DNA of 64,000 nt from Planctomycetaceae bacterium (lineage in GTDB: Bacteria > Planctomycetota > UBA1135 > GCA-002686595): assembly GCA_011525785.1 (NCBI GenBank), contig WYBT01000038.1:62001-126000 (forward strand). The letters are read 5' to 3'. Every line of letters begins with the position of its first letter. Position 1 is the first letter of the stretch. The position numbers were made by a program, and so were the translations under genes. Below the pieces are notes generated by a model that was not told the origin of the DNA, did not search any database, and saw only the letters and a program-made list of their open reading frames with translations. Below are positions 1 through 25,530 of the stretch, piece after piece.

Positions 1-2232
1 CCGCAAGGCGAGTTCGCGGCCGAAGCGGCGCTTCAGCGCGGGATCCAGCTGCTGCTCGCCGGCGACGCGCGCGGCGCGGCGCAAGCGTTGGAGTCGCGCG
101 CGAACGACCCCGATTCACGCTACTGGCTGGCTCGCGCGCGCCTGGAGAGCGGCGATCCGACCGGCGCACTCGCGGCGCTCGACAGCGCACTGGCAGACAA
201 GCCACAGGGCGAACTGCTGGAGCGCTTGAGCGTGCTGCGCGGGGATGCTCTCGGCGCCCTTGGACGCGCCGACGACGCGGCCGCGGCCTACTCCGCTGCG
301 CGCAGCGACTACGCGCTCCACGCGGCGGCCATCACGGCCTTCAACGCCGGGAAGCTGGACGAGGCGGCCCGCACGGCTCGCGTGCTGCTCCAGCAGTTCC
401 CGCAGAGTTCGTTCGCAGCGCCGATGCGCGTGGTGTGCGGTGAGCACGCGCTGGCGCGCAAGGACTACGCCGCCGCGTTGCGCGAGTTCGACGCAGCCGC
501 CAGCGATGAGCAGGCCCCGGGCGCGACGCGAGCACGCGCAGCGTTGCGCGGCGCATGGTGTGCGCTGCTCTCGGGCGATGCGGAATCGGCGCTCGAACGC
601 GCTCAACAACTGAGTCAGCGTTTCGCCGACTCGCCCGAGGCGCCTCAGGCGCGCTTCGTGCTCGCGTGCGCGGCCGACAAGCTCGGCCGCAGCGAGCTGG
701 CGCTCGAGGCCTGGAGCGACTACCTGCGAGCCGATCCGCGCGGCGAGCACGCGGCCGAAGCGCTCGCGGGGCTGGCGCGCGTCGACCGCGAGCGTTCCGC
801 GCAGTGGAGCGAGCGGCTGGCCGCGGAGTTCCCCGACTCGCCGAGCGTGGTGAGCGTATTGCTCGAACTCGCCGAGCTCGAAGCGCAAGAAGGGCGCGTC
901 GAGCGCGCGCTCGAGCTGTACCGCGACGTGTTGCGGCGCTGGCCCGAGCATCCGCGGGCTGCGCAAGCGCGCTACTCGCTCGCCTGGCGGCTGTTCGAGT
1001 CGGGCGCATTCGCCGAGGCGGCGCGCGAACTCGAGCTGCTCGCGCAGGTCGAAGGCCTCGACGCGGCGCTCGCGAGTTCGGCTGCGGAGCTCGCGGTGTG
1101 GGCCGCGAGCCGCGCGGGCGACGGCGCGGGTGCGGTGAGCGCCTACGAACGATTCCGACGCGTCGGCGGGACGCCGCGCAAGCTGCTCGGCGCCGCGCGG
1201 CTCGCTGGCGCAGCGCTCTCCGACGCGGGCCGCCCGCAGGAAGCGCGCGCGCTGTTCGACGAACTGCTCTCCAAGTCGCGCGGAGATCGCGCCGTGCAGG
1301 CCGAAGTGCTGCTCGAGAGCGCCTGGATCGCGCTCGACGCCAAGGACGTCGACGAAGCCGAGGCGGCGCTGCGCACCGCGCTCAAGTTCGGCCCCGCGCC
1401 CGCTGCGAGAGCGCCGCTGGCCCAGGCCTTGTTCTTCGCGGGCGAGTTGCGTTTCGAGGCCGGCGAGATCGAGGCCGCGCGCGCGCTGTACGAGCTGGCG
1501 CTGCCCGGCGCCGCTGCGGAGGTCGCGGCGCAGGCGCTCTACAAGCTGGGCTTCGCGCACCTGCGCGCGGAGCGGCTCGACGACGCTGCGCTCGCCTTTG
1601 CGCGCGTCGGCGCGGAACACACTGAGCACGAGCTGGCTGGCGAAGCGCGCTACCTCGCAGCCAACTGCCGTTTCCGCCAGGGCCGCTTCGAGGAATGCGC
1701 CGCGCTGCTCGCGAGCTTCGTGCGCGAGTCTCCGCGCCATGCCTGCGCTCCCAAGGCGTTGCTCGAGCTGGGCGTGGCCTGTGGCGAGCTCGGTCGCTGG
1801 AGCGAGTGCGAGGCGGCGTTGGGCGAGCTCGCGCGCCGCGGCTCGAAGGAAGTCGATGTCGCGCAGGCCGATCTGTGGCGCGCCCGAGCCGCCCGTGCGC
1901 GCGGCGACGTGCGCGGCGCACGCGCGTGTCTCGAGCGTGTGCTCGCGGCCGACAAAGGGCTGCAGGCCGCGCGCGCACGGCTCGAGCTGGGCCAGCTCGA
2001 CGCCGAAGCCGGCAAGCACGAGGACGCGCTGGCGCAGTTCCTGAAAGTCGCGCTGCTGTACGAGGGCGGCGACGTCGTTCCGCAGGCGCTGCTGCTCGCG
2101 GCCGGCTCGCTCGAGGCGCTCGAGCGCTTCGACAAGGCGCGCGCGCGCTACGCCGAGATCGTCGAGAAGCACGCGAACTCGCCGCAGGCCGCCCGCGCCC
2201 GCGAGCGGCTCGAAGCGCTCGCGCGCAATTAG
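1..2232 (+). CDS. TPR-repeat protein, 5' end outside window
   Basis: The frame is open from the first base, so the true start is upstream; 743 residues are visible. A TTG at 88 could start a protein but has no special support. The product consists almost wholly of 34-residue TPR-like helical hairpins, with small residues at the packing positions and P-x-x-P/S-x-A turns ending repeats (for example around LYRDVLRRWPEHPRAAQ and ALYKLGFAHLRAERLDDAA). Such arrays are protein-binding scaffolds; the subset with this turn resembles the CpoB/YbgF and BamD group of envelope proteins. The next gene in the same direction is exbB after about 100 bp, so I infer a periplasmic partner of an ExbB/ExbD motor, as CpoB is for Tol-Pal. 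No catalytic motif is visible. The family call is firm; the role is inference. Confidence 0.85.
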   Translation, partial: PQGEFAAEAALQRGIQLLLAGDARGAAQALESRANDPDSRYWLARARLESGDPTGALAALDSALADKPQGELLERLSVLRGDALGALGRADDAAAAYSAARSDYALHAAAITAFNAGKLDEAARTARVLLQQFPQSSFAAPMRVVCGEHALARKDYAAALREFDAAASDEQAPGATRARAALRGAWCALLSGDAESALERAQQLSQRFADSPEAPQARFVLACAADKLGRSELALEAWSDYLRADPRGEHAAEALAGLARVDRERSAQWSERLAAEFPDSPSVVSVLLELAELEAQEGRVERALELYRDVLRRWPEHPRAAQARYSLAWRLFESGAFAEAARELELLAQVEGLDAALASSAAELAVWAASRAGDGAGAVSAYERFRRVGGTPRKLLGAARLAGAALSDAGRPQEARALFDELLSKSRGDRAVQAEVLLESAWIALDAKDVDEAEAALRTALKFGPAPAARAPLAQALFFAGELRFEAGEIEAARALYELALPGAAAEVAAQALYKLGFAHLRAERLDDAALAFARVGAEHTEHELAGEARYLAANCRFRQGRFEECAALLASFVRESPRHACAPKALLELGVACGELGRWSECEAALGELARRGSKEVDVAQADLWRARAARARGDVRGARACLERVLAADKGLQAARARLELGQLDAEAGKHEDALAQFLKVALLYEGGDVVPQALLLAAGSLEALERFDKARARYAEIVEKHANSPQAARARERLEALARN

Positions 2233-2335
2233 CCCTTGCTGACCCACGCGCAGCGCGCGCCCGCGCCGCGCGATTCCCACTGACTGTTTGTCTGCATCCA
2301 CCACGAGGCGCCAGCGCTGCCTCGCCGAGGTCCGC

Positions 2336-3067
2336 ATGTCCTTTGCACTGCAACAAGCCCCTTCGCGTCCGATCACCCAACTCGACAGCGTGTTCGAAAT
2401 GGTCGTCGCCGGTGGTCCGGTGATGATCCCGCTCGCGCTGTGCTCCCTGGTCGCATTGACGTGCGCGTTCGAGCGCGCGCTGCGACTGCGTTCCCGCGCG
2501 CTCGGCGTCGCGGAGCTCGAACGTGAACTCCTGCCGGCGCTCGCTGCGGGAGGCGCGGCCGGCGGAGTCGCCGTGCTCGAGCGCCACGCAACGCCCGCTT
2601 CGCGCGTGCTGCGCGCGGGCTTGAGCCGCTGGGACGCGCCGTACCTCGAGCGCGAAAAGGAGCTCGAAGAGGCTGGTTTGCGCGAAGTCCGCGGGCTGTC
2701 GGCCAACCTCAAGCCGCTGGTCTACATCGCGATGCTCGCGCCGCTGCTGGGTTTCCTCGGCACGGTGTACGGGATGATCGTGGCCTTCTCCACGGTCGCG
2801 CTGAGCGAGGGCCTCGGGCGGCCCGAGTTGCTCGCCGCCGGCATCAGCCAGGCGTTGGTGACGACCGCTGCGGGCCTGACGATCGCCGTTCCCGCGCAGG
2901 TCCTCTACTACTGGCTCAAGTCGCGCGTCGAGCGCTTCGCACGCAACGTCGAGGAGCTGTGGGAGCGCTCCGCGCGCACGCTGCGCTCCGGTGTGACGCC
3001 GCCGCCCGCGGTGTCGAGCGCGCCCCCCGCGTCCGAGCCGATCTCCGGCGCCGCACAACCCGCCTAG
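2336..3067 (+). CDS. exbB: ExbB/TolQ/MotA-family proton channel subunit
   Basis: Inner-membrane proton-channel subunit that, with ExbD, turns proton-motive force into mechanical work on an envelope partner. The 243-residue product has the family layout: one membrane helix near residues 22-45, a long cytoplasmic stretch with charged helices, then two helices near 127-155 and 172-193. The second carries the conserved small-residue motif LLGFLGTVYGMI and the third the pore-lining TTAAGLTIAVPA motif. Start: ATG 2336 puts the first helix at the usual distance; an in-frame extension to 2288 would add 16 residues with no family match. The exbD gene follows after 10 bp. The downstream protein has an SxxxH helix typical of TonB, which favours ExbB over TolQ or MotA. 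Confidence 0.92.
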   Translation: MSFALQQAPSRPITQLDSVFEMVVAGGPVMIPLALCSLVALTCAFERALRLRSRALGVAELERELLPALAAGGAAGGVAVLERHATPASRVLRAGLSRWDAPYLEREKELEEAGLREVRGLSANLKPLVYIAMLAPLLGFLGTVYGMIVAFSTVALSEGLGRPELLAAGISQALVTTAAGLTIAVPAQVLYYWLKSRVERFARNVEELWERSARTLRSGVTPPPAVSSAPPASEPISGAAQPA

Positions 3068-3077
3068 GAGCTGCGCC

Positions 3078-3491
3078 ATGCACCTGCGCGACGAAGAGCC
3101 GCTCGACGAGCAGGCCCTCAACCTGACCTCGATGACGGACCTGGTGTTCCTGCTGCTCGTGTTCTTCCTGTGCGCGACGACCTTCCTCGATCCCGAGCGC
3201 GCGCTGCGCCTCGAACTGCCGGCTGCGCAGAGCGCGGAACGGCGCGATGAGCCGCTCGAGGAGCTGGTCATCAACGTCTCGCGCGACGGAGCGCTGACCC
3301 TCGCGGGCCGTGCGATCGACCGCGCCGCGCTCGGGCGCGAGCTGCGCGCCGCCCGTGCGCGCGATCCGCAGACGCCCGTGACGATCCGCGGCGATCGGCT
3401 CGTGTCGCACGAGAACATCGTCAGCGTGATGGACGCCTGCGGACAGGCGGGGCTCTCGAACCTGGCTGTCGGAACGCTCGAGGGCTCGTAG
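3078..3491 (+). CDS. exbD: ExbD/TolR-family biopolymer transport protein
   Basis: Partner of the preceding channel subunit: a single-span inner-membrane protein with a small periplasmic domain. The 137 residues show a short cytoplasmic N terminus (residues 1-18), the signature TSMTDLVFLLLVFFL with the proton-carrying aspartate at about residue 21, and then a periplasmic region containing V-I-N-V-S-x-D-G, the usual first strand of the ExbD/TolR fold. Length is normal. ExbB and the downstream large gene are each 10 bp away, so the three are surely co-transcribed. The aspartate and the operon make the call solid. Confidence 0.93.
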   Translation: MHLRDEEPLDEQALNLTSMTDLVFLLLVFFLCATTFLDPERALRLELPAAQSAERRDEPLEELVINVSRDGALTLAGRAIDRAALGRELRAARARDPQTPVTIRGDRLVSHENIVSVMDACGQAGLSNLAVGTLEGS

Positions 3492-3501
3492 GAGACGCGC
3501 T

Positions 3502-6500
3502 GTGCTCACTGCCGCCTCGCGCAAGAACGTCGTGATCGCCATGGCGCTCGCCGGCGCCGCGCTATTGGCCTTCAACCGCTGGGTTCTGCCAGCGTTGTTC
3601 GACCTGCGGCCGATCCGCGACGGCGCCGGCGTGTACGCACGCGACGATGCGCGGCTGCGCTTGGCGGTGTGGGAAGCGCCGCGGCCGCTGGCGGGCGAGC
3701 TCGACACTTCCGAGCGCGAGTCGCACGCGCGCACTTCGCCGGACGGACGCTGGCTGGTCTACAGCGCGGGCGAGCCTGGGGCCGACTGCGAGCTGTACCT
3801 CGCCGAAGTGGTGGGGGGCGCGCCCACCGCGCCGCGCGTGTTGGCCGAGCTGAACAGCGCCGCGGACGAGCTGGCGCCGAGTTGGGGCGAGGGTGCGCTC
3901 TACTTCTGCTCCGATCGCGCGGGCGGCGCCGGCGGTTTCGATCTGTATCGCGCGGCCTGGGACGGCGCGACGTTCGGCGCGGTCGAGGCGCTCGCCGCGG
4001 TGAACACCGCCGCGAACGAGTGCGATCCCGCGCCCGGCGATGCGGTGCTCGTGTTCGCGAGCGATCGCGACGGCGCGGGCTTCGACCTGTTCGTCGCGCC
4101 CGCGGGCGGAGCGGCGACGAAGCTCGAGCAGCTCTCCAGCGCTTCCGACGAGCGCGACCCGTTCCTCACGCCCGACGGCCGCGCGCTGTACTTCGCGACC
4201 AACCGCGCGCGCGGCGGCGAGGACTTCGACCTGTGGCGCAGCTTCTTCGACCTCGGCGAATGGCTCGCGCCCGAGCGCGTCGCCGGTCTCGATTCACGCG
4301 CCGCTGAACGCGCTCCGGCGACTTCACCCGACGGCCTGACGCTGCACTTCACGCGCGCAGGCGACTCCGCGGCGGAGCTGCTGGTCTCGCGCTCGATCGA
4401 GCTCTTCCGCGGCGCCGCGCCGGCGCGGGGATGGGCTGACCTGTGGCTGATGGCAGCGCTGTTGCTGCTGGCTCTGGTCGCCGCGCTGTCCAAGCGCTGG
4501 GAAGAGCTCGATCTGCTTTACAAGTGCGCGCTGGCGAGCGTGATCGCGCACTTGCTCGTACTGCTGCTCTTGCGCGAGCTGCGGCCCGACGCGGAGGCCT
4601 GGGACAAGGCGCCGCCAGCGCAACAGCGCATCCGCGTGCGGCTCGAGACTCCGCGCGAGCGCGGCATCGTCGAGCGCGAGGGTCGGCTCGAGACCGAACG
4701 CGTGGCGCGCAGCGAGGCGGCGACCGCACAGCCCGAACGCATCGAGTTCGAAGCGCGCGACGAGGACCCGAGCTCGAGCTCGGCAGCGCCACTCGCGCTC
4801 GAGTCCGCGCCGCTCGCGGCGGCCCCGCAGCCCGAACGCGTCGAGCTGGAGCGCACGGAGTCGGCCAGCGCAGCGCGCGCGCCGGCGGTCGAGCTGCCCG
4901 GGGAGTCGCGCGCGCGTCGCGCAGCTGAGAGCGTCGCCGAGGCGCTGCCGCAGCCAGCTGCGACGCGCGCGGAGCGCAGCGAAGCGCCGGCCCAGGGCCC
5001 CGCGCTCGCGCAACTGACGACGCCCGCGCTCGCGGAGGCCGCGCCAGCGGCTGCCGCGCTCCCGCGCGAGGCGCCCGAGCGCACCTCGGAGCGGATTCCG
5101 GCCGCTCAACCGAGCGCTCCGCCCGAGCGCTCGCTCGACGCCAGCGCGCTGGCCGCGGTTCCGCGCGTCGACTTGCCCGCGGAGGCGCGGGCGCGCAATT
5201 CGGCCGCTGCAGACAACTCACCGCTGGCGCCAGCCCGTTCGTTCGAGCTCCAGCGCGAGGCGGGCGAAGCCACGTCGTCTGAAGCGACGCCCGAGCGCGT
5301 CGAGATCGCCGGGGCCGGCGCCGAGCCCGCGCGCGAGCTCGCGCCGAGCAATGCGCCGAGCAATGCGCCTCTCGAACGCGCGGCGGCGCCGCAACCGGCC
5401 CCCGAGCGCGCGTCGGCCTTCGCATCGGCGGCGAGCGAGCCTGCGTCGCGTGGCGCTGCTCAGAGCGCCGCCCCGCAACTCGAATTGCCGCGCGAAGAGC
5501 GTCAGCTCAGTTCGCTCGAGTCGCGCCCCGCGGACGAAGCGCCCGCGCCGCGCGCGCTCGCTCCGCAACGCCGAGCTGCGCCGGGCGACGCAGCGTCGTC
5601 GGAAGCGACGCCCGAGCGCGTCGAGATCGCCGGGGCCGGCGCCGAGCCCGCGCGCGAGCTCGCGCCAAGCAATGCGCCTCTCGAACGCGCGGCGGCGCCG
5701 CAACTCGCGCCCGAGCGCGCGTCGGCCTTCGCATCGGCGGCGAGCGAGCCTGCGTCGCGCGGCGCTGCTCAAAGCGCCGCTCCGCAGCTCGAATTGCCGC
5801 GCGAAGAGCGTCAGCTCAGCTCGCTCGAGTCGCGCTCCGCGGACGACGCGCCCGCGCCGCGCGCACTCGCGCCGCAGCGACGCGCGACGGCGACGGACGC
5901 AGCTCCCAGCGCGCCGCTGGCCGCCTCCGCGCCGAACGCCGAACCCGCTGAGAGCGCTGCGCCCGCGCTGCAGCCGCTCGAGGCCGCGCCGCGCGCCGCA
6001 GCGCTCGACACACCGCCCGCGCCGCGTCCGCTGGACGACACGCCCTACCGCTCGCGCTTCGGCACGGAGAAGGAGATCGCGCTGCGCGAGCACGGCGGCA
6101 GCGAAGAGACCGAGCGCGCGGTGGCGAACGGGTTGCGCTACCTCGCTTCGCGCCAGCGCCGCGATGGCTCGTGGGGCTCGCGCAGCGACGCGCACGCGAA
6201 GTACCGCGACGTGCGCGTCGGCAAGAGCGGCCTCGCGCTGCTGGCGTTCCTCGGCGCAGGGCACACGCCGGGTTCGCCCGGCGAGTACGCGCGCGTGAGC
6301 GAAGCGGCCGTGAATTGGCTGCTCGCGACGCAGGACCCCGCGACGGGCCACTTTGGCGACTGCGAGGCCTACGGCCACGGGATCGCGACCTACGCGCTCG
6401 CTGAGTGCTTCGCCCTCACGCGCGACGAGCGCTTGGGCGGCGCAGTGCGGCGCGCGGTCGAGCGCATCCTCGCGGAGCAGATCACGCGCGGAGATGCGCG

Positions 6501-7149
6501 CTCGATCGGCGGCTGGAGCTACTTCTATCCCGACGGCGCGATCTTCGACCGCTGGCCGCGCGCTTCGATCGCGGCTTGGCAGGTGATGGCGCTCGAATCG
6601 GCGCGCCTGGGCGGCATCGACGTGCCCGACGAGGCGTTCGCGCGCGCGAGGGAATTCCTGCGCGGCTCGTGGGACGCCGAACTCGGCCGCTTCCGCTACA
6701 GCCACGATCCGCAGCGTCTGCGCTCGGGCTACGCGACCTTGCCCGGCTCGACGCCCGCTGCGCTGTTCGCGCTGTCGCTGCTGGGCGAGGACCTCTCCGC
6801 GCCGCGCTGGCGCCAGGCCGTCGACTTCGTCAGCGCCTGCGCGCCGAACGGCTACCGCTGGGAGGGCGAGGACGCCTTCGTCGAGCGGGCCGGGGGCAAC
6901 CTGTACTTCTGGTACTACGGCAGCCTGGCCCTCTTGCGGCGCGGCGGAGACGCGTGGGAGCGCTGGAACGTCGCGCTGAAGGAGTCGCTGCCGCCGGCGC
7001 AAGCGGAGGACGGCTCGTGGGCGCCGCTGGACGTGTACAGCCAGTACGCCGGCGACGACGAGCGCGACCGGGTGTACTCGACCGCCATGTGCGTGCTGTC
7101 GCTCGAGGTCTACTACCGCTACTTCACGCCGCTGCTCGAGGTGCGCTGA
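3502..7149 (+). CDS. TonB-like transducer with beta-propeller and C-terminal alpha/alpha-toroid domain
   Basis: A 1215-residue membrane protein with an unusual architecture. Visible in order: an N-terminal helix (10-33); PD40/TolB-like propeller repeats (about 60-295; SPDGRWLVYS, TPDGRALYFATNRA, SPDGLTLHFTR); a helix at 311-329; a short basic loop; a second helix at 344-362 containing SVIAH, with Ser346 and His350 in the SxxxH spacing of TonB; a roughly 480-residue Ala/Glu/Pro/Arg linker; and a C-terminal prenyltransferase/squalene-cyclase-like helical domain (about 865-1215; Q-R-R-x-D-G-S-W-G motif). The start is GTG 3502 with GGAG just upstream. Lying 10 bp after exbD, it occupies the place of a TonB. 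I infer that the linker and toroid domain extend into the periplasm. The linker carries a tandem duplication. No catalytic function can be assigned to the toroid domain. Confidence 0.8.
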   Translation: MLTAASRKNVVIAMALAGAALLAFNRWVLPALFDLRPIRDGAGVYARDDARLRLAVWEAPRPLAGELDTSERESHARTSPDGRWLVYSAGEPGADCELYLAEVVGGAPTAPRVLAELNSAADELAPSWGEGALYFCSDRAGGAGGFDLYRAAWDGATFGAVEALAAVNTAANECDPAPGDAVLVFASDRDGAGFDLFVAPAGGAATKLEQLSSASDERDPFLTPDGRALYFATNRARGGEDFDLWRSFFDLGEWLAPERVAGLDSRAAERAPATSPDGLTLHFTRAGDSAAELLVSRSIELFRGAAPARGWADLWLMAALLLLALVAALSKRWEELDLLYKCALASVIAHLLVLLLLRELRPDAEAWDKAPPAQQRIRVRLETPRERGIVEREGRLETERVARSEAATAQPERIEFEARDEDPSSSSAAPLALESAPLAAAPQPERVELERTESASAARAPAVELPGESRARRAAESVAEALPQPAATRAERSEAPAQGPALAQLTTPALAEAAPAAAALPREAPERTSERIPAAQPSAPPERSLDASALAAVPRVDLPAEARARNSAAADNSPLAPARSFELQREAGEATSSEATPERVEIAGAGAEPARELAPSNAPSNAPLERAAAPQPAPERASAFASAASEPASRGAAQSAAPQLELPREERQLSSLESRPADEAPAPRALAPQRRAAPGDAASSEATPERVEIAGAGAEPARELAPSNAPLERAAAPQLAPERASAFASAASEPASRGAAQSAAPQLELPREERQLSSLESRSADDAPAPRALAPQRRATATDAAPSAPLAASAPNAEPAESAAPALQPLEAAPRAAALDTPPAPRPLDDTPYRSRFGTEKEIALREHGGSEETERAVANGLRYLASRQRRDGSWGSRSDAHAKYRDVRVGKSGLALLAFLGAGHTPGSPGEYARVSEAAVNWLLATQDPATGHFGDCEAYGHGIATYALAECFALTRDERLGGAVRRAVERILAEQITRGDARSIGGWSYFYPDGAIFDRWPRASIAAWQVMALESARLGGIDVPDEAFARAREFLRGSWDAELGRFRYSHDPQRLRSGYATLPGSTPAALFALSLLGEDLSAPRWRQAVDFVSACAPNGYRWEGEDAFVERAGGNLYFWYYGSLALLRRGGDAWERWNVALKESLPPAQAEDGSWAPLDVYSQYAGDDERDRVYSTAMCVLSLEVYYRYFTPLLEVR
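5273..5890 (+). repeat. Tandem duplication (about 300 bp x 2) inside the linker of the TonB-like gene
   Basis: Two nearly identical direct copies, roughly 5273-5581 and 5594-5890. The spacing between matching bases is 321 at the start and 309 after a 12-bp difference; the first copy carries one extra APSN unit (residues near 615). Both encode the ATPERVEIAGAGAE ... PRALAPQRRA segment in frame. The copies differ at only a few scattered bases, which indicates a recent in-frame duplication. Confidence 0.9.
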
Positions 7150-7244: not shown

Positions 7245-7303
7245 TTGAGGCGCTGCGAGCCGCACGAGGCGGCCCGCCCGTGCGCGGAGGAATCGAGCGA
7301 GCG

Positions 7304-7711
7304 ATGAAGGACAAGGACCGCATCCACCATCTGGGCGAGCTGCAACACGCGATCATGCGCGTCTTGTGGGCTGAAGGCGAAGCCAGCGTCGCGCGCGTGC
7401 AGGAAGCGTTGCCGCCCGAGGACCGCCGCGCGCTGACGACCATCGCGACCATGCTCACCAAGATGGAGCGCAAGGGCGTGGTGACGCACCGCTCCGAGGG
7501 GCGCTTCTTCATCTACGCGCCCGCGGTCAAGGAGACCGACGTGCGGCGTTCGATGGTCGAAGACCTCACCGAGCGCCTGTTCGACGGCGACGTCGCGGCG
7601 CTCGTGTCGCATCTGTTGACCGAGCAGGAAATCGAGCGCGACGAGCTCGCGCGCCTGCAGAAGCTGATCGAGTCGCGCCGCAAGGGGGACAAGGGCCATG
7701 GGCGCAAGTGA
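7304..7711 (+). CDS. BlaI/MecI/CopY-family transcriptional repressor
   Basis: Winged-helix DNA-binding repressor of 135 residues, the family's usual length. The N-terminal half reads as the BlaI wing-helix (LGELQHAIMRVLWAEGEAS, then TTIATMLTKMERKGVV) and the C-terminal half as the dimerisation helices with FDGDVAALVSHLL. In this family, repression is relieved when a partner M56 peptidase triggers cleavage of the repressor. That partner gene overlaps this one by 14 bp, which supports the assignment. Start: ATG 7304 begins the family's normal N terminus, with GGAGG 13 bases upstream; GTG 7280 would add eight residues. The dyad at 7229-7244 is a likely operator. No beta-lactamase gene is nearby, so the controlled signal is unknown. 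Confidence 0.9.
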   Translation: MKDKDRIHHLGELQHAIMRVLWAEGEASVARVQEALPPEDRRALTTIATMLTKMERKGVVTHRSEGRFFIYAPAVKETDVRRSMVEDLTERLFDGDVAALVSHLLTEQEIERDELARLQKLIESRRKGDKGHGRK

Positions 7712-9623
7712 GTTCGCGCTCAGCGCGCTCGCCTTCGTGCTGACCTACGCGATCCACAGCACGTTGCTGCTCGGCGTGGTGTGCCTGGTGGCGCCGCGCC
7801 TCGTGCGCTCGCTGGCGTTGCGCGAGAAGCTGTGGAAGACCGCCATGTTCGGCGGACTGCTCACGGCCCTCGTGCAAGTGGGCGCGAGCATGGAGACGCC
7901 GCTGTTCCACTGGACGCTGGCGTCGCAGGAAGCTCCTGGCGGGCTCGCTGCCGTCAGCGGGCTCGAACTCGCTCCGACGCCCGCGCCCGAGGCCGCGCCC
8001 GAACAGTCTCGCGCGATTCGGCCGGTCAGCGAGATCACCGCGCCGCGCGCGGAGCAGCGCTGCGCCGCGGAGTCGCCGATCGAAACCGAGCCCGCTGACG
8101 CGCCGCGCGCGGACGAAGCGACCCCGACGCCGGCCGCGCTGGCGTGGCTCGCGCCGGCGGGCGAGCTTGCGTCGCGCGTGTCGACGGCGCTGGGCGCGCA
8201 GCTCATCCCGTCGCTCGCGCGCGGCGACTCGCAGCGGACTCCGCATGTCGAGCTCGCCGACGAGCCTGCTTTCGAGGCGGCCAGCGTGGAGCCTTCGGAA
8301 CCGGCGTCCGACCTGGCGGCGAACGATGGGGGCGCGAGCTGGTCCGCCGCGCTCGCCAATCGCTGGCGCGAGTGGACGGTGCACGGGCTCGCGCTGTGGG
8401 CGCTGTTCGCGCTGGCGGTGCTGGTCGTGTTCGCGTCGATGTGCTGGCGCCTGGTGCGCTGCATGCGCGGTCGCACGGAGCTCGAGAGCGGTCCGCTGCG
8501 CGAGGTGCTCGACCGCTTGGTCCTCCAGGCCTTCCCCGCGGGTCGGCGCATCCGTCTGTACGTCGCGCCCGAGCTGCGCGCGCCGGTCAGCATGGGCTGG
8601 CTGCGGCCGGCGATTTGCGTCCCGCCGCGCGCGCTGGTCGAACTCAGCAGCGACGAACAAGAGAGCATGCTCGCGCACGAGCTCGCGCACCTGGTGCGGC
8701 GCGATCCGCTGTGGCTGTCGGCCGCGTGGCTGGTCGAGCGCGTGTTCTTCTTCCAACCGCTGCACCGCGTCGCGCGCGCCGAGCTGCACGACCTCGCCGA
8801 GCTGGCGTGCGACGAGTGGGCCGCGCGCCGCACGGGCGACCGGCTGGCGCTCGCCAGCTGCCTCGCGCGCATCGCCGAGTGGATCGTCGGCGCGCCGCGT
8901 GCGCTGCCGGCGACCTCGATGGCGGAGCAGCACGGCCGCTGTCGGCTGGCGCAGCGCATCGAACGGTTGCTCGACGACGAGTCGTCGCTCGCGCGCGAAG
9001 ATGGCGCGCGCCGCTGGCTGGCGCCGGCGGTTGCGACGGGTCTGGGAGCGCTGGTGTTCGTCGCTCCGGGTGTGTCGGCGCCTGCGGCCGAAGCCTCGAG
9101 CGCAGTCGCGGATTCCGACGCCGCCGAAGCGTCGGAGAGCGTGGCCGAGGACTCGATCAGCGGTGATGCGCGCCTCGATGCCGCGCTCGACGAGCCTGCG
9201 GCCGCGTGGCCTGCGCCGGCGAGCAGCTGGACGCCCGACGTGTGGGCTGGCGCGCCTGCGCCGGCGGAGTTCTACGGCGCGCAGCCGCCCGAGGCCGTCG
9301 ACACGGCGCCCGCTGCGCCTCCGGCTGAGCCCGCGCCCGCGCTCGACGAGCGCGCCTCGCTCGACGCCGAACTGGCGCGCTTGAACGAGAGCCTGGCCGC
9401 GCTGCGCGATGAACTCGCGCCGCTGCGCGCCGAGGCCCTCGAACTCGGCGACACGTCGGAACTCGCGTGCACGCTGGCCTCCGTCGCGCGCCGCGTCGAC
9501 AACCTGGAGCGCCGTTCGCGCGCGCTCCGCGAAGTGATCCAAGTGCTCGAAAACCTCGAGTCGAAGCCAGCCCATCCTTCGAGCACTCCCTTTGGTTTCC
9601 AAGGTTCCAGGAGTCTTCCGTGA
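7698..9623 (+). CDS. M56-family (BlaR1/MecR1-like) membrane zinc metallopeptidase
   Basis: Integral-membrane sensor peptidase of 641 residues expected to act with the overlapping BlaI-like repressor. Visible parts: helices near 6-33 and 45-62; an Ala/Glu-rich loop (about 75-220); a helix near 226-250; and the cytoplasmic gluzincin core with HELAH, zinc ligands His327 and His331, catalytic Glu328, and a downstream E-L-A-C-D-E segment offering the third ligand. A last helix lies near 438-458. BlaR1 carries a penicillin-binding sensor at its C terminus. Here that region is an Ala/Pro-rich stretch and a short coiled coil, so the sensed signal is probably not a beta-lactam. Its stop overlaps the next start (TGATG). 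Confidence 0.88.
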   Translation: MGASEFALSALAFVLTYAIHSTLLLGVVCLVAPRLVRSLALREKLWKTAMFGGLLTALVQVGASMETPLFHWTLASQEAPGGLAAVSGLELAPTPAPEAAPEQSRAIRPVSEITAPRAEQRCAAESPIETEPADAPRADEATPTPAALAWLAPAGELASRVSTALGAQLIPSLARGDSQRTPHVELADEPAFEAASVEPSEPASDLAANDGGASWSAALANRWREWTVHGLALWALFALAVLVVFASMCWRLVRCMRGRTELESGPLREVLDRLVLQAFPAGRRIRLYVAPELRAPVSMGWLRPAICVPPRALVELSSDEQESMLAHELAHLVRRDPLWLSAAWLVERVFFFQPLHRVARAELHDLAELACDEWAARRTGDRLALASCLARIAEWIVGAPRALPATSMAEQHGRCRLAQRIERLLDDESSLAREDGARRWLAPAVATGLGALVFVAPGVSAPAAEASSAVADSDAAEASESVAEDSISGDARLDAALDEPAAAWPAPASSWTPDVWAGAPAPAEFYGAQPPEAVDTAPAAPPAEPAPALDERASLDAELARLNESLAALRDELAPLRAEALELGDTSELACTLASVARRVDNLERRSRALREVIQVLENLESKPAHPSSTPFGFQGSRSLP

Positions 9624-11398
9624 TGAAACTGGTTTTGTCTCTCTCCGCGCTCGGACTGATCGGCGGCGGGGCCGCTGCGGTCTCGACGCAGAGTTCGTGT
9701 GCGAGCCCCAAGCCGTGCGGGACGACCCTCGCGGCGCAGTCGGGCTCGAGCTGCACCCAGGCCGCGCCGCTGGCGATCTCCATCGCCGCCGGCCCCGCGC
9801 AGGGTGACAAGGTCGCGGCGCGCGCGGCGGAACTCGAAGCGCTCGCCGGCGAGGCGCAGGCTGCCGAGCTCGCTCCGAGCGCGGACGCCGGGCTCGCTAC
9901 GCAGGCGCCGGCAGCTCCGAACACGCGCGTGTTCCGCTACGAAGGCGGCAAGCTCGCGCCCGCAGCCCCTGCAGCGCCGCGTGCTCCGTCGGCCCCGCGC
10001 TCAGCGCTCGCGCCGCGCGCTCCTGCAGCGCCGCACGCGCCGGCCCAACCCTGCGAGCCCTGCCCGCCGACGCCGGCGTGTCCGCCGTGCCCGCCGTGCG
10101 AGTCCACGCCGGCGGCGCCCGCGGCGCCCAATGCGCGGGTCAAGGTGCGCGGCTCGGTCTCGACCGCTCCGGATCGGCGCGCCGACATAGAACGTCAGAT
10201 GGCCAAGGCGCGGGAGGCGCACGAAGGGGCCCTCGAGCGCGCGCGAGAGGCGCAGGAACACGCTCGCGAGCGCATGCGCGAAGCGATGGAGCGCCAACGC
10301 GAAGCGCAACAGCGCGCCCGCGAAGAGTCGGAGCGCGCGCGCGAACGCGCCCTGGCGCAGACCCAGCGTGCGCAGGAGCGGGCGGAGCGCAGCGCGATCA
10401 ACACGCGCGCTCACACGGCTCGCGGCGCCGGGCAGGCCAAGGGTGGCGCAGCGGGCGGTGGAGCGGGCGGTAGAGCGGGCGCAAGTGAGCGCGAGCTGGA
10501 GCTCGAGCGGCGCGTGCAGGAGCTCGAAGCACGGCTGGCGGAGATGGAGCGCGCGCGCGGCGGGCGCTCGGACGCTTCGACCACGACGCCTTCGGCTCCG
10601 CAGGGCTGGTTGGGAGGCCAGCGCATCCGCGCTCGCGCGCTCAGCCCGAACAGCTCCGGCGCGGCGCTGTTCGAGATCTCCCCGGAGTCCGGCGACGAGC
10701 GCGAGTGCAATCCCAGCCGCGTGCGCGTGCTGCGCATGCCGTCGGGGCAGGGCACGGTGATCGTGCCCGGCGAGCTCGGCGCCTTGGAGCAGCTCGAAGG
10801 CCTCGACATCGCGCTGATCGGGCCCGACGGTGAGCAGTTCGAGTGGGCCGAAGACATGGCGAAATGGGCCGAGGACTTCGCGCACAGCCAGGCGCAGTGG
10901 GCCGAACAGTTCGCGCGCGCGCACGCCGGCGAGTGGAGCGAGCTGGCCGAAGAGCAGTGGGAGGGCTTCGAGGAAGCCTTCGAGGAGGCCTGGGAGCGCT
11001 ACGAGGATCAGCTCGAGGAGGCCGAAGAGCTCGAAGACGAACTGCGCGAGGCTGCCGAGGAAGCGGCTGAAGAAGCGGCTGAGGACGCCGCCGACGCGCA
11101 GGAAGCCGCTGACGAGCTCGAGCGTGAGGCCGCCGAGCGGGCGCGCGATACTCGCCAACTGCCGCACGTGGTGAGCAACGGCCAGGCCCGCGCGCTCGCC
11201 CCCGTGGCCGCGCAGAGTCTGCTCGGCGCCCAGGATCCTCTGGGGATCGCGCGTTTGGCCAGCTATCCCGGCGAGTCGAGCGCCGCGCAGCTGCGCAGCG
11301 CCGTGAGCGAGATGCAGAGCGAAGTCGACGGACTGCGCGAAGCCTTGCGCGAGTTGCGCGCGCAGATCGAGCAGCGCAAGCGCCCCGCAGGTCGCTGA
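9623..11398 (+). CDS. Exported Ala/Arg/Glu-rich coiled-coil protein, third gene of the BlaI-M56 operon
   Basis: Unrecognised 591-residue protein. ATG 9623 overlaps the M56 stop by one base (TGATG) and has AGGAG ten bases upstream. A signal sequence runs over residues 1-26 (MKLVLSLSALGLIGGGAAA), followed by a Cys-rich patch around CEPCPPTPACPPCPPC, then long charged helices: an Arg/Glu heptad region of AREAHEGALERAREAQE type (about 190-265), a coiled coil near 290-315, a small folded segment (about 340-410, VRVLRMPSGQGTVIVPGEL), an acidic Trp-containing helix (about 410-500), and a final coiled coil. It ends at a strong terminator. Because it is translated with the M56 peptidase, it may be a substrate or effector of that sensor; that is inference only. 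Confidence 0.75.
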   Translation: MKLVLSLSALGLIGGGAAAVSTQSSCASPKPCGTTLAAQSGSSCTQAAPLAISIAAGPAQGDKVAARAAELEALAGEAQAAELAPSADAGLATQAPAAPNTRVFRYEGGKLAPAAPAAPRAPSAPRSALAPRAPAAPHAPAQPCEPCPPTPACPPCPPCESTPAAPAAPNARVKVRGSVSTAPDRRADIERQMAKAREAHEGALERAREAQEHARERMREAMERQREAQQRAREESERARERALAQTQRAQERAERSAINTRAHTARGAGQAKGGAAGGGAGGRAGASERELELERRVQELEARLAEMERARGGRSDASTTTPSAPQGWLGGQRIRARALSPNSSGAALFEISPESGDERECNPSRVRVLRMPSGQGTVIVPGELGALEQLEGLDIALIGPDGEQFEWAEDMAKWAEDFAHSQAQWAEQFARAHAGEWSELAEEQWEGFEEAFEEAWERYEDQLEEAEELEDELREAAEEAAEEAAEDAADAQEAADELEREAAERARDTRQLPHVVSNGQARALAPVAAQSLLGAQDPLGIARLASYPGESSAAQLRSAVSEMQSEVDGLREALRELRAQIEQRKRPAGR

Positions 11399-22110: not shown

Positions 22111-25100
22111 ATGAACTCACTTCACACCGCCGCGTTCGCGCTGCTCGCCTGTTCGCAACTGGCCCTCGCCCAATCGACCGAGCCCGCGCGCCCCGATGCG
22201 GTGCTGCTGCGCATGCCGGATGTGAGCGAGACGCAGGTCGTGTTCCGCTACGCGAACGATCTGTGGCTCGCGCCCAAGGAGGGCGGCGTCGCGCGCGCGC
22301 TGGCGTCGCCTGAGGGCGAGGAGTCGTTCCCCAAGTTCAGCCCTGACGGTCGGCGCATCGCGTTCGTCGCGGGCTACGACGGCGGCGCCGACCTGTACGT
22401 GCTCGACATCGACGGCGGCGTGCCGCAGCGCGTCACGTATCACCCGTTCCCTGAGACGCTGTGCGACTGGCATCCCGACGGCAAGTCGCTGATCTACTTC
22501 TCGTCGCAGGCGTCCGGCCAGCAGCGCGCGCCGCGCCTGTTCCGCGTGAGCGCCGCGGGCGGGGCGAGTGAGCCGCTGCCCGTTCCGTATGGCGTGTTCG
22601 GCGCGATCGACGACACGGGCTCGTGGCTGGCCTACACGCCGACTGCGGCCAGCGAGTTCCGCACGTGGAAGCGCTACCAGGGCGGCCTCGCCCAGGACGT
22701 GTGGCTCTTCAACCTCGTCACGCTCGAGGCGCGGCGCGTGACCGACCACCCGGGCACGGACGCGCTGCCGCTGTGGCACGGGCACGAGCTGTACTTCCTC
22801 TCCGATCGCGACTCGAACGCGCGCGCGAACCTGTGGGTCTACGACACGCAGCGCAAGACCACCGCGCAGGTCACCGACTTCGTCGAGGCCGACGTGCGCT
22901 TCCCCTCGGTCGGTCCGCTGGACATCGTGTTCGAGAACGGCGGCAAACTGCAGCGCTTCGAGTTCGCCACGCGGCGCACGCACCGCATCGAGATCGCGAT
23001 CGGCGGCGAGCGCCCGAGCCTGCGCCCGCAGGCGATCCGCGTCGAGCCGAACATCGAGAGCGTGACGCTCGGGCCCAACGCGCGTCGGGTGGTCGTCGAC
23101 GCGCGTGGAGAGCTCTTCAGTGCGCCCGTCGACGAGGGCGTGACGCGCAACCTCACGCGCACCGACGGCGTGGCCGAGCGCTATCCCTCGTGGAGCCCCG
23201 ACGGCAAGTGGATCGCGTACTTCAGCGACGAGAGCGGCGAGTACGAGCTGTGCGTGATGGACGCGGACGGGCGACCGTTCCGTTGGCCCGGCGCGAGCGA
23301 AGATCAAACGCGGCGCACGCTGACCTCGATCGGCCCGGGCTGGAAGTACCGGCCGACCTGGGCGCCCGATTCGCGCAGCCTCGCCTTCTGCAACCACGCG
23401 GGTGAGTTGTGGCGGCTCGAGCTCGAGAGCGGCGCGCTCACGCGCCTGGCGACGAACCCCGACGGCCAGCCGATGCCGATCGACTGGTCGGCCGACTCGC
23501 GCTGGATCACCTGGTCGATGCGCAGCACGCGTTCGCGCCTGAGCGCGCTGTGGGTGTGCGACACGCGCGATGGCAGCGTGCGCGAGCTCACCAGCGGGCT
23601 CTACGACGATCGCAGCCCCAGCTTCGACCGCGACGGCAAGTGGCTGTACTTCGTTTCGACGCGCACCTTCGAGCCGACCTACTCGGGCATCGACGAGACC
23701 TGGATCTACGCCAACGGCGTGAACCTGATGGCGTTGGCGCTGCGCAAGGACACGCAGAATCCCTTCGCGCCGCGCGACGAGCGCGAAGTCGAGTCCGCGG
23801 AGTCGAGCGACAGGAAGGACAAGCCGGACGAGAAGAGCGGCGACGAGGCGGAGTCGAAGCCTGCAGAGAAGCCGGCTGAGGCTGCTGAGGCGCCCGTAGC
23901 GGCGACGGAGCAGGAGAAGGCGCCCGACACTGCCGCCAAGATCGACAAGCTCGCGGTCGAGATCGACTTCGACGGCCTCGAAGCGCGCATCGTGCAGCTG
24001 CCCGTCGACGCCGGCGTGCTCGACGCGCCGGTGGGAGGCGCTTCGAAGGTCTTCTACCTGCGCCGGCCGCGCGCCGGCTCGGGCGGCCGCGATGCGACGC
24101 TCGCGCAGTTCGCGATGAGCTCGAAGAAGAAGGAGCGCGTCGAGAAAACCGTGCTGAGCGGCGTGCGCTCGTTCCAGCTCGCAGACAAGGCCGAGAAGCT
24201 GCTCGTGCGAGTGAACGACGGCTGGGCCGTGATCGAAGCCAAGCCCGAGCAGAAGGTCGAAGGCAAGCTCGACCTCGCGCGCCTGGAGGCGAGCATCGAT
24301 CCGCGGCGAGAGTGGAAGCAGATCCTCGCCGACGCGCACCGGCTGATGCGCGACTTCTTCTACGAGCCCACGTTGCACAGCGTCGACTGGGACAAGGTCC
24401 ACGCGCGCTTCGCGCTGGCGCTCGGCGATGCGACGCACCGCGCTGATTTGCACTACCTGCTCGGCGAGATGATCTCCGAGCTCAACGTCGGCCACGCCTA
24501 CAACCGCGGTCCCACCGAAGAGGCCAATCCGCGCGCGCTGCTCGCGGGCCTGCTCGGCTGCGATTTCGCGCTGGAGGATGGCGCGTACCGCATCACGCGC
24601 ATCCTCGGCGCGGGCTCGCCCGAGATCGACGCGCGCGGGCCGCTCGCGCAGCACGGCGTCGACGCGCGCGTCGGCGATTGGCTGCTGGCGGTCAACGGGC
24701 AGGCGCTGGACACGGCGCGCGACGTGCACGCGGCCTTCCTCGGCCTGGCGGGCGCGCCGGTCGAGCTCACGCTCAACGCGCGGCCGGTGCTCGACGGCGC
24801 TGAGCGGCGCGTCGTCGCGACGCCCATCGAGAGCGACGCCGAAGTGCGCTATCGCGATTGGGTCGCGTCGCGTCGCGAGCAGGTGGCGGCGCTCTCCAAT
24901 GGCCGCGTCGGCTACGTCCACGTCCCCGACACGGGTTTCCGCGGCCAGAACGAGCTCGTGCGCCAGTTCGAGTCGCAGATGCACAAGGACGCGCTCTTGA
25001 TCGACGAGCGCTGGAACGGCGGCGGCCAGATCCCGACGCGCTTCATCGAGCTCCTGAACCGCCCGCGCACGAACTTCTGGGCCGTGCGGCATGGCGAGGA

Positions 25101-25530
25101 CTGGAACTGGCCGCCGAGCGCGCACCATGGCCCCAAGGCGATGCTGATCAACGGCTCGTCGGGCTCGGGCGGCGACGCGTTCCCGTACTACTTCCGCCAG
25201 GCGAACCTCGGCAAGCTGATCGGCCAGCGCACCTGGGGCGGACTGGTCGGCATCTCCGGCAATCCTTCGTTCGTCGACGGCGCGGGCATCACGGTGCCGC
25301 GCTTTGCGTTCTACGAGAAGGACGGCACGTGGGGCGTCGAGGGCTACGGCGTCGCGCCGGACATCGACGTGCTCGACGATCCGGCGCTGATGGCGCACGG
25401 CGAGGACCCGCAGCTCGTCGCGGGAGTGCAGCACCTGCTGCGCGAGCTCGAGACCTTCCCCTTCGAACGCGCCAAGCGCCCCGCTCCGCCCGACCGCCGC
25501 GGCGCGGGCGTGACGCCGGCGGATCGGTGA
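22111..25530 (+). CDS. Exported Tricorn-type protease homologue (S41 family)
   Basis: A 1139-residue protein with Tricorn architecture. A signal peptide (1-22, ending LALAQ) is followed by two PD40/WD40-like propellers (about 30-540; motifs FSPDGRRIAFVAGYDG, WSPDGKWIAYFSDESGEYEL and WAPDSRSLAFCNHAGELW). An acidic Lys/Glu/Ala linker covers about 550-615, then come a helical core (about 720-800), a PDZ-like domain (about 815-905) and an S41 catalytic domain. Likely catalytic parts are H795 in NVGHAYNRG and the nucleophile segment G-S-S-G-S-G-G-D at 1015-1022, most probably S1019. Archaeal Tricorn is cytoplasmic and degrades oligopeptides from the proteasome; this exported form likely processes peptides outside the inner membrane. 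In Tricorn a Ser precedes the His; here it is Gly794. Confidence 0.9.
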   Translation: MNSLHTAAFALLACSQLALAQSTEPARPDAVLLRMPDVSETQVVFRYANDLWLAPKEGGVARALASPEGEESFPKFSPDGRRIAFVAGYDGGADLYVLDIDGGVPQRVTYHPFPETLCDWHPDGKSLIYFSSQASGQQRAPRLFRVSAAGGASEPLPVPYGVFGAIDDTGSWLAYTPTAASEFRTWKRYQGGLAQDVWLFNLVTLEARRVTDHPGTDALPLWHGHELYFLSDRDSNARANLWVYDTQRKTTAQVTDFVEADVRFPSVGPLDIVFENGGKLQRFEFATRRTHRIEIAIGGERPSLRPQAIRVEPNIESVTLGPNARRVVVDARGELFSAPVDEGVTRNLTRTDGVAERYPSWSPDGKWIAYFSDESGEYELCVMDADGRPFRWPGASEDQTRRTLTSIGPGWKYRPTWAPDSRSLAFCNHAGELWRLELESGALTRLATNPDGQPMPIDWSADSRWITWSMRSTRSRLSALWVCDTRDGSVRELTSGLYDDRSPSFDRDGKWLYFVSTRTFEPTYSGIDETWIYANGVNLMALALRKDTQNPFAPRDEREVESAESSDRKDKPDEKSGDEAESKPAEKPAEAAEAPVAATEQEKAPDTAAKIDKLAVEIDFDGLEARIVQLPVDAGVLDAPVGGASKVFYLRRPRAGSGGRDATLAQFAMSSKKKERVEKTVLSGVRSFQLADKAEKLLVRVNDGWAVIEAKPEQKVEGKLDLARLEASIDPRREWKQILADAHRLMRDFFYEPTLHSVDWDKVHARFALALGDATHRADLHYLLGEMISELNVGHAYNRGPTEEANPRALLAGLLGCDFALEDGAYRITRILGAGSPEIDARGPLAQHGVDARVGDWLLAVNGQALDTARDVHAAFLGLAGAPVELTLNARPVLDGAERRVVATPIESDAEVRYRDWVASRREQVAALSNGRVGYVHVPDTGFRGQNELVRQFESQMHKDALLIDERWNGGGQIPTRFIELLNRPRTNFWAVRHGEDWNWPPSAHHGPKAMLINGSSGSGGDAFPYYFRQANLGKLIGQRTWGGLVGISGNPSFVDGAGITVPRFAFYEKDGTWGVEGYGVAPDIDVLDDPALMAHGEDPQLVAGVQHLLRELETFPFERAKRPAPPDRRGAGVTPADR

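Follow-up and report, generated by a model that had tools for sequence, protein, structure and literature searches.

Proton-path Asp and Thr residues and a Pro in transmembrane helix 3 (TM3) have been described for the Ton and Tol motors (PMC12905483). In addition, the D-box of TonB binds an ExbD dimer through strand recruitment (PMC10907165), and for TolA a similar "motor box" is reported from 93% of the validated sequences (PMC12204202). Transducers with a von Willebrand factor A (vWA) head were recently proposed as well (Williams-Jones et al., 2025; PMC12204202); these combine an SHLS helix with a disordered linker and are encoded beside a tetratricopeptide repeat (TPR) gene, tolQ and two tolR genes in the Planctomycetes-Verrucomicrobia-Chlamydiae (PVC) group. 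In Planctomycetes themselves, Tol-Pal is described as reduced to a large extent (PMC8871954). Here, we analyzed a 64,000-nt stretch (the window; contig WYBT01000038.1, positions 62,001 to 126,000) from the 6.8-Mb draft genome of a Planctomycetaceae bacterium (GCA_011525785.1; our G000, contig C32). Window coordinates are used throughout. It contains a gene for a candidate force transducer that follows ExbB- and ExbD-type motor genes, keeps the two motor contacts of TonB and TolA, and ends in an alpha/alpha toroid.

Gene order, motor contacts and topology

A first-pass annotation, made from the sequence letters, had read this gene as a TonB-like transducer directly after exbB and exbD, with a beta-propeller before an S346-x3-H350 membrane helix, and a long Ala/Glu/Pro linker and a squalene-cyclase-like helical domain after it. 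This layout was borne out and in part refined. PF01618 and PF02472 matched the two upstream gene products (Table 1), and both motif residues were found exactly at those positions inside a hydrophobic helix, TM3, which was also helical (residues 338-359) in an AlphaFold model of residues 1-401 (59-sequence alignment; mean predicted local distance difference test score, pLDDT, 85.5). Hydropathy and this model gave three membrane helices, with the propeller (PD40, Pfam E 5e-16) between TM1 and TM2. The linker (residues ~371-850, about 470 aa) is composed of 28% Ala, 14% Pro, and 12% Glu, and is several-fold longer than that of TonB; the spacing from TM3 to the toroid was 365-642 aa in orthologues. 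Part of the linker has undergone a recent tandem duplication of about 107 aa (5261..5903, + strand), with 242-nt copies 91% identical and 97-nt copies 95% identical. A gene-call artefact was ruled out, since the open reading frame (ORF) is uninterrupted in every homologue for which sufficient DNA was available.

The same architecture, for which the annotation had suggested a search in related genomes, was found to be strictly kept. Among related Planctomycetota loci with sufficient upstream DNA (n = 51), all 51 showed the order TPR, ExbB/TolQ-type, ExbD/TolR-type, transducer, and a single ORF encoded both propeller and toroid. In the window locus, the TPR gene begins upstream of the window (L006:3140). 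By our reading, D21 of the ExbD-type protein and T159, T192, and P202 of the ExbB-type protein are putative counterparts of the Asp, Thr, and TM3 Pro described for the Ton and Tol motors.

To assess the SxxxH motif itself, we aligned 82 rows (80 distinct sequences). The His was invariant (82/82), while the Ser was present in 76 rows and replaced by Ala in six, and in the 59-sequence alignment five positions within residues 1-401 were invariant, H350 among them. The six Ala-for-Ser orthologues (L065, L066, L091, L097, L131, and L134) all keep the His. Considering that SxxxH occurred in about 1% of background TM segments from the same loci (9/797, three of the nine being toroid proteins missed by the filter), chance occurrence was ruled out. 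A second motor contact, absent from the first-pass annotation, is the D-box, with alternating hydrophobic residues I377, V379, and L381. This pattern was found at His +25 to +29 in 56/59 homologues and in 4.6% of equal windows in the remaining linkers; in E. coli, as read from the K-12 genome, the D-box lies at +25 in TonB (ISVTMV) and at +28 in TolA (IDAVMV). The SHLS motif is incomplete, with its Leu at His+7 (L357 in the window protein, F or L in most homologues). Judged from these sequences, the transducer is very probably coupled to and driven by the ExbB/ExbD motor, and since His helix and D-box are kept at fixed spacing across the phylum, such coupling is directly testable.

Mean net charge over the 59 homologues was positive before TM1 (+1.8) and in the TM2-TM3 loop (+1.5), and negative after TM1 (-0.7) and after TM3 (-1.8). 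Because of this positive-inside bias, the N-terminus and the TM2-TM3 loop are predicted to lie inside, and the propeller, linker, and toroid in the periplasm; a cytoplasmic linker was rejected on the same charge bias. Neither of the two outcomes that the annotation had named as refuting its reading, a linker in the cytoplasm or homologues lacking the motif, was seen, the six Ala-for-Ser rows apart.

Table 1. Features of the transducer locus in window coordinates
Feature	Position	Strand	Remarks and evidence
3' part of 1030-aa periplasmic TPR protein	1..2232	+	Signal peptide; CpoB/YbgF- and BamD-like TPR repeats
ExbB/TolQ-type motor pentamer subunit	2288..3067	+	T159, T192 (pore threonines) and P202 conserved; PF01618 E 1e-24
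ExbD/TolR-type motor subunit	3078..3491	+	Proton-binding Asp D21 conserved; PF02472 E 3e-26
Candidate toroid-headed force transducer, whole gene	3502..7149	+	1215 aa, GTG start
TM1 (residues 4-33), N-terminus predicted inside	3511..3600	+	Hydropathy, AlphaFold model, charge bias
TolB-like PD40 beta-propeller, about 5 blades (residues 55-300), predicted periplasmic	3664..4401	+	Pfam, profile, model, Foldseek
TM2 (residues 311-330), then short positively charged loop, predicted cytoplasmic	4432..4491	+	Hydropathy, model, charge
TM3 (residues 338-359), TonB/TolA-type helix	4513..4578	+	Hydropathy, conservation, model
S346 codon	4537-4539	+	Within TM3
H350 codon	4549-4551	+	Within TM3
D-box/motor-box strand I377-R-V379-R-L381-E-T	4630..4650	+	27 residues past H350
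Long Ala/Pro/Glu/Arg/Ser linker (residues 384-851)	4651..6054	+	
Alpha/alpha toroid head (residues 852-1215), without DxDD site	6055..7146	+	Conservation, model, Foldseek
BlaI/MecI-type repressor	7280..7711	+	Recurrent neighbour, not core
BlaR1-like M56 membrane peptidase	7698..9623	+	Recurrent neighbour, not core

Toroid, propeller and distribution

The toroid was the most conserved part of the transducer (mean column identity 61-65%). Pfam SQHop_cyclase_C matched the window protein below its cut-off (E 3e-4) and 51 of 55 homologues at E<=0.1 (best 8e-14), and a profile search matched squalene-hopene cyclases (E 4e-5). The model of the toroid (pLDDT 92; predicted template modelling score, pTM, 0.93) had a squalene-hopene cyclase as its best PDB match, in agreement with the fold read in the first pass. 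The DxDD motif was found at no conserved column, with scattered strings in 9/55 rows at differing columns and none in the window protein. Invariant toroid residues were not significantly enriched at one barrel mouth (Fisher p 0.22), and therefore we make no claim of a pocket. In the open-access literature we found nothing on ExbD with squalene cyclase, on planctomycete TonB toroids, or on such a transducer family. The proposal of a new kind of periplasmic head, periplasmic by the charge prediction, thus holds against the literature searched.

The propeller, modelled with about five blades whose strands lie between residues 55 and 300, points to Tol. Among PDB sequences, the N-terminal profile matched TolB best (E 2e-7). 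In Foldseek, TolB or putative TolB took the first 14 places for the N-terminal model (best E 2e-12), at modest template modelling scores of about 0.4, partly since the query includes the TM helices. Rankings against NCBIfam placed TolQ (3e-19) before ExbB (6e-13) for the ExbB gene product and TolR (2e-14) before ExbD (1e-10) for the ExbD gene product, and the best model for the TPR protein was YbgF/CpoB (TIGR02795, 218.7 bits summed over seven tandem stretches; cut-off 90.1). With TolB as the closest solved relative of the propeller, and with motor proteins that rank nearer to TolQ/TolR, our first choice is that the machine works more like Tol than Ton. The label "TonB-like" given in the first pass therefore stands for the SxxxH helix and the motor genes, but is incomplete with regard to the propeller, the motor pair, and the TPR protein. 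TolB_N exceeded its cut-off in none of 41 genomes (E. coli control positive), and a Pal gene was not part of the conserved four-gene unit in the 51 loci; two unlinked OmpA-domain lipoproteins elsewhere in the host genome could serve as Pal. A PD40 propeller also occurs elsewhere in the window, in a Tricorn-type protease (22111-25530) with PDZ and S41 domains.

Homologues were searched for with the toroid domain alone. Nearly all named relatives carried the label Planctomycetota or unclassified bacteria; among them are the isolates Pla86, Poly30, and Pla163. In 294 Planctomycetota genomes, 26 toroid matches scored >450 bits and the others <=246 bits. In most of the distant toroid proteins examined, SxxxH is present in a TM helix (L141 has A-x3-H), suggesting that toroid-headed transducers may form a phylum-wide class in Planctomycetota. 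The distant loci L137, L141, and L142 keep TPR-ExbB-ExbD, and in L138 and L144 the toroid gene follows an ExbD gene. No clear propeller is present in L138, L142, or L144, so this domain looks to have been added as a module. Other SxxxH-toroid proteins stand alone, without adjoining motor genes (L143, L145-L150, and, in the host genome, L151:3676-5256 on G000:C44), and may share motors encoded elsewhere.

Two further gene sets accompany the locus or its genome. A second cluster in the host genome, TPR-ExbB-ExbD-ExbD followed by a secretin-like gene (L009; G000:C26:45000-56000), resembles the TPR-tolQ-tolR-tolR context of vWA transducers. In the window genus, the four-gene unit is followed by genes for a BlaI-type repressor, a BlaR1-like M56 peptidase, and then a coiled-coil protein (together 7280-11398 in the window). 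The BlaI/BlaR1-like pair lies upstream of the unit in at least three other genera and does not adjoin it in others; it is possibly an envelope-stress regulator of the unit. Besides the window, the loci that bear on this are L163, L164, L165, L040, L057, L058, and L125.

Proposed mechanism and alternatives

Taken together, these observations probably reflect an envelope machine of the TolQRA/ExbBD-TonB kind, driven by the proton motive force (PMF) and fitted with a new head. In such a machine, a TolQ/TolR-type motor would hold the transducer through TM3, with S346 and H350 against the periphery of ExbB/TolQ, and the D-box strand would pair with the periplasmic ExbD/TolR dimer. With each motor cycle, a pull on the long disordered linker would be passed on to the toroid, which would bind an outer-membrane or cell-wall partner, whether glycan, lipid, or protein. 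Tied to the inner membrane on its outer face, the propeller could regulate the machine or serve as a scaffold, a role that would derive from TolB, and the periplasmic TPR protein could be a CpoB-like partner that modulates the machine together with the propeller. Its overall task would be to link the outer envelope with the inner membrane as cells grow, divide, or change shape. Among the parts of this proposal, an outer-envelope target for the toroid seems somewhat favored, and a Tol-like role rather than one in uptake is put forward tentatively, at slightly under an even chance.

Several points weigh against this mechanism. TolQ and TolR scores fell below the equivalog cut-offs and serve as rankings only, and the CpoB/YbgF label rests on repeats. 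In the ExbB-type protein, there is no obvious counterpart of the TM1 Trp that takes part in the E. coli contact network, and the final Ser of SHLS (His+11) is absent, being R361 in the window protein and R, E, or Y in homologues. Many distant SxxxH toroid proteins have no motor genes beside them. Finally, since a linker of 365-642 aa is several times as long as that of TonB, efficient pulling is not self-evident.

Alternatively, the system might drive shape change or movement over surfaces, in the manner of the AglRQS-Glt gliding motor; the toroid would then be a head for adhesion or coupling. A TolQR-type motor together with a TPR protein and a non-Tol head would fit such a system, as would the orthologues in Pla86, Poly30, and Pla163, which we take to belong to the Saltatorellus clade. 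Since drastic shape change has been reported for bacteria of this clade (PMC11481906, PMC11032199), we regard this as the main rival, and a gliding role has also been suggested for vWA transducers (Williams-Jones et al., PMC12204202). However, the conserved unit includes no gliding outer-membrane components and also occurs in many metagenome-assembled genomes of unknown behavior. The link to shape change is a correlation only, and overall we consider a motility role unlikely.

Less probable still is a TonB-type transducer for nutrient uptake, its toroid acting on TonB-dependent receptors or on some other transporter of the outer membrane to drive import. SxxxH and the D-box are common to TonB, the ExbB/ExbD scores are also significant, and the linker contains Pro, but the protein lacks a TonB_C domain, no receptor gene belongs to the conserved four-gene unit, and the propeller and TPR protein point to Tol. 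Moreover, sequence reading indicated a separate ExbB-ExbB-ExbD-TonB-like cluster by a TonB-dependent-receptor-like gene in the host genome (contig C56), on which ground an ordinary TonB was rejected. That the toroid is instead a membrane-anchored enzyme, terpene cyclase-like or glycan-active, with the SxxxH helix a mere anchor, is the least probable reading. In its favor, the toroid is highly conserved, with many invariant aromatic and polar residues, and class II cyclases are among its Foldseek matches, as are (alpha/alpha)6 enzymes that act on glycans. Against it, DxDD is absent from every conserved column, and a helix that served only as an anchor should have no need to retain the His and a D-box spaced as in TonB/TolA, or to stay strictly linked to the motor.

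If the motor-driven envelope machine is correct, it would be a candidate to supply the Tol function that bacteria without TolB are missing, among them isolates allied to the Saltatorellus clade with its changes of shape, and would widen the range of machines by which bacteria work on the outer envelope. A more far-reaching scenario, which we offer as speculation and think improbable as a whole, is that Planctomycetota evolved toroid-headed PMF transducers phylum-wide and that, in the window lineage, a TolB-like propeller fused to a TolA-like transducer took the place of Tol-Pal in organisms that lack a canonical TolB. The toroid would then grip a glycan or lipid of the envelope, and the machine would have a part in FtsZ-less division and shape change.

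Comparison with known systems

The locus resembles Tol-Pal in its TolQ/TolR-type motor, S/H TM helix, D-box, long linker, TolB-like propeller, and periplasmic TPR protein, all in one cluster. However, the propeller is fused N-terminal of the TolA-like part and lacks the TolB N-domain, the toroid replaces TolA domain III, and the cluster has no Pal. With Ton it shares the motor, the SxxxH helix, a Pro-containing linker, and a D-box, which in TonB lies 25 residues past the His, but it differs in its propeller and two additional TM helices, its several-fold longer linker, and its lack of a linked receptor. No match at E<=1 to the TonB C-terminal domain (PF03544/PF13103) was found in the full transducer, nor to the TolA C-terminal domain (PF06519). 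Given these results and those for TolB_N and Pal, we place the family outside both Ton and Tol-Pal, although in general kind it is a TonB/TolA-type motor-driven transducer.

The toroid shares its fold, and its Foldseek and profile matches, with the squalene-hopene cyclase/prenyltransferase superfamily, but is without DxDD, tethered to the membrane by the transducer helix, and apparently used as a head. A Pfam scan of the transducer gave no vWA domain, and the toroid-headed type is not described in the text of PMC12204202. Nevertheless, the vWA-headed transducers are the closest published kind, sharing the TM helix with the SHLS His, the disordered linker, a head other than that of TolA or TonB, and the TPR-tolQ-tolR context. 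Relative to these, the present transducer has an alpha/alpha toroid as head, one ExbD rather than two, and an N-terminal TM-propeller-TM module. The heads driven by TolQR/ExbBD-type motors would thus extend from the TolA and TonB domains and the recently proposed vWA to the alpha/alpha toroid.

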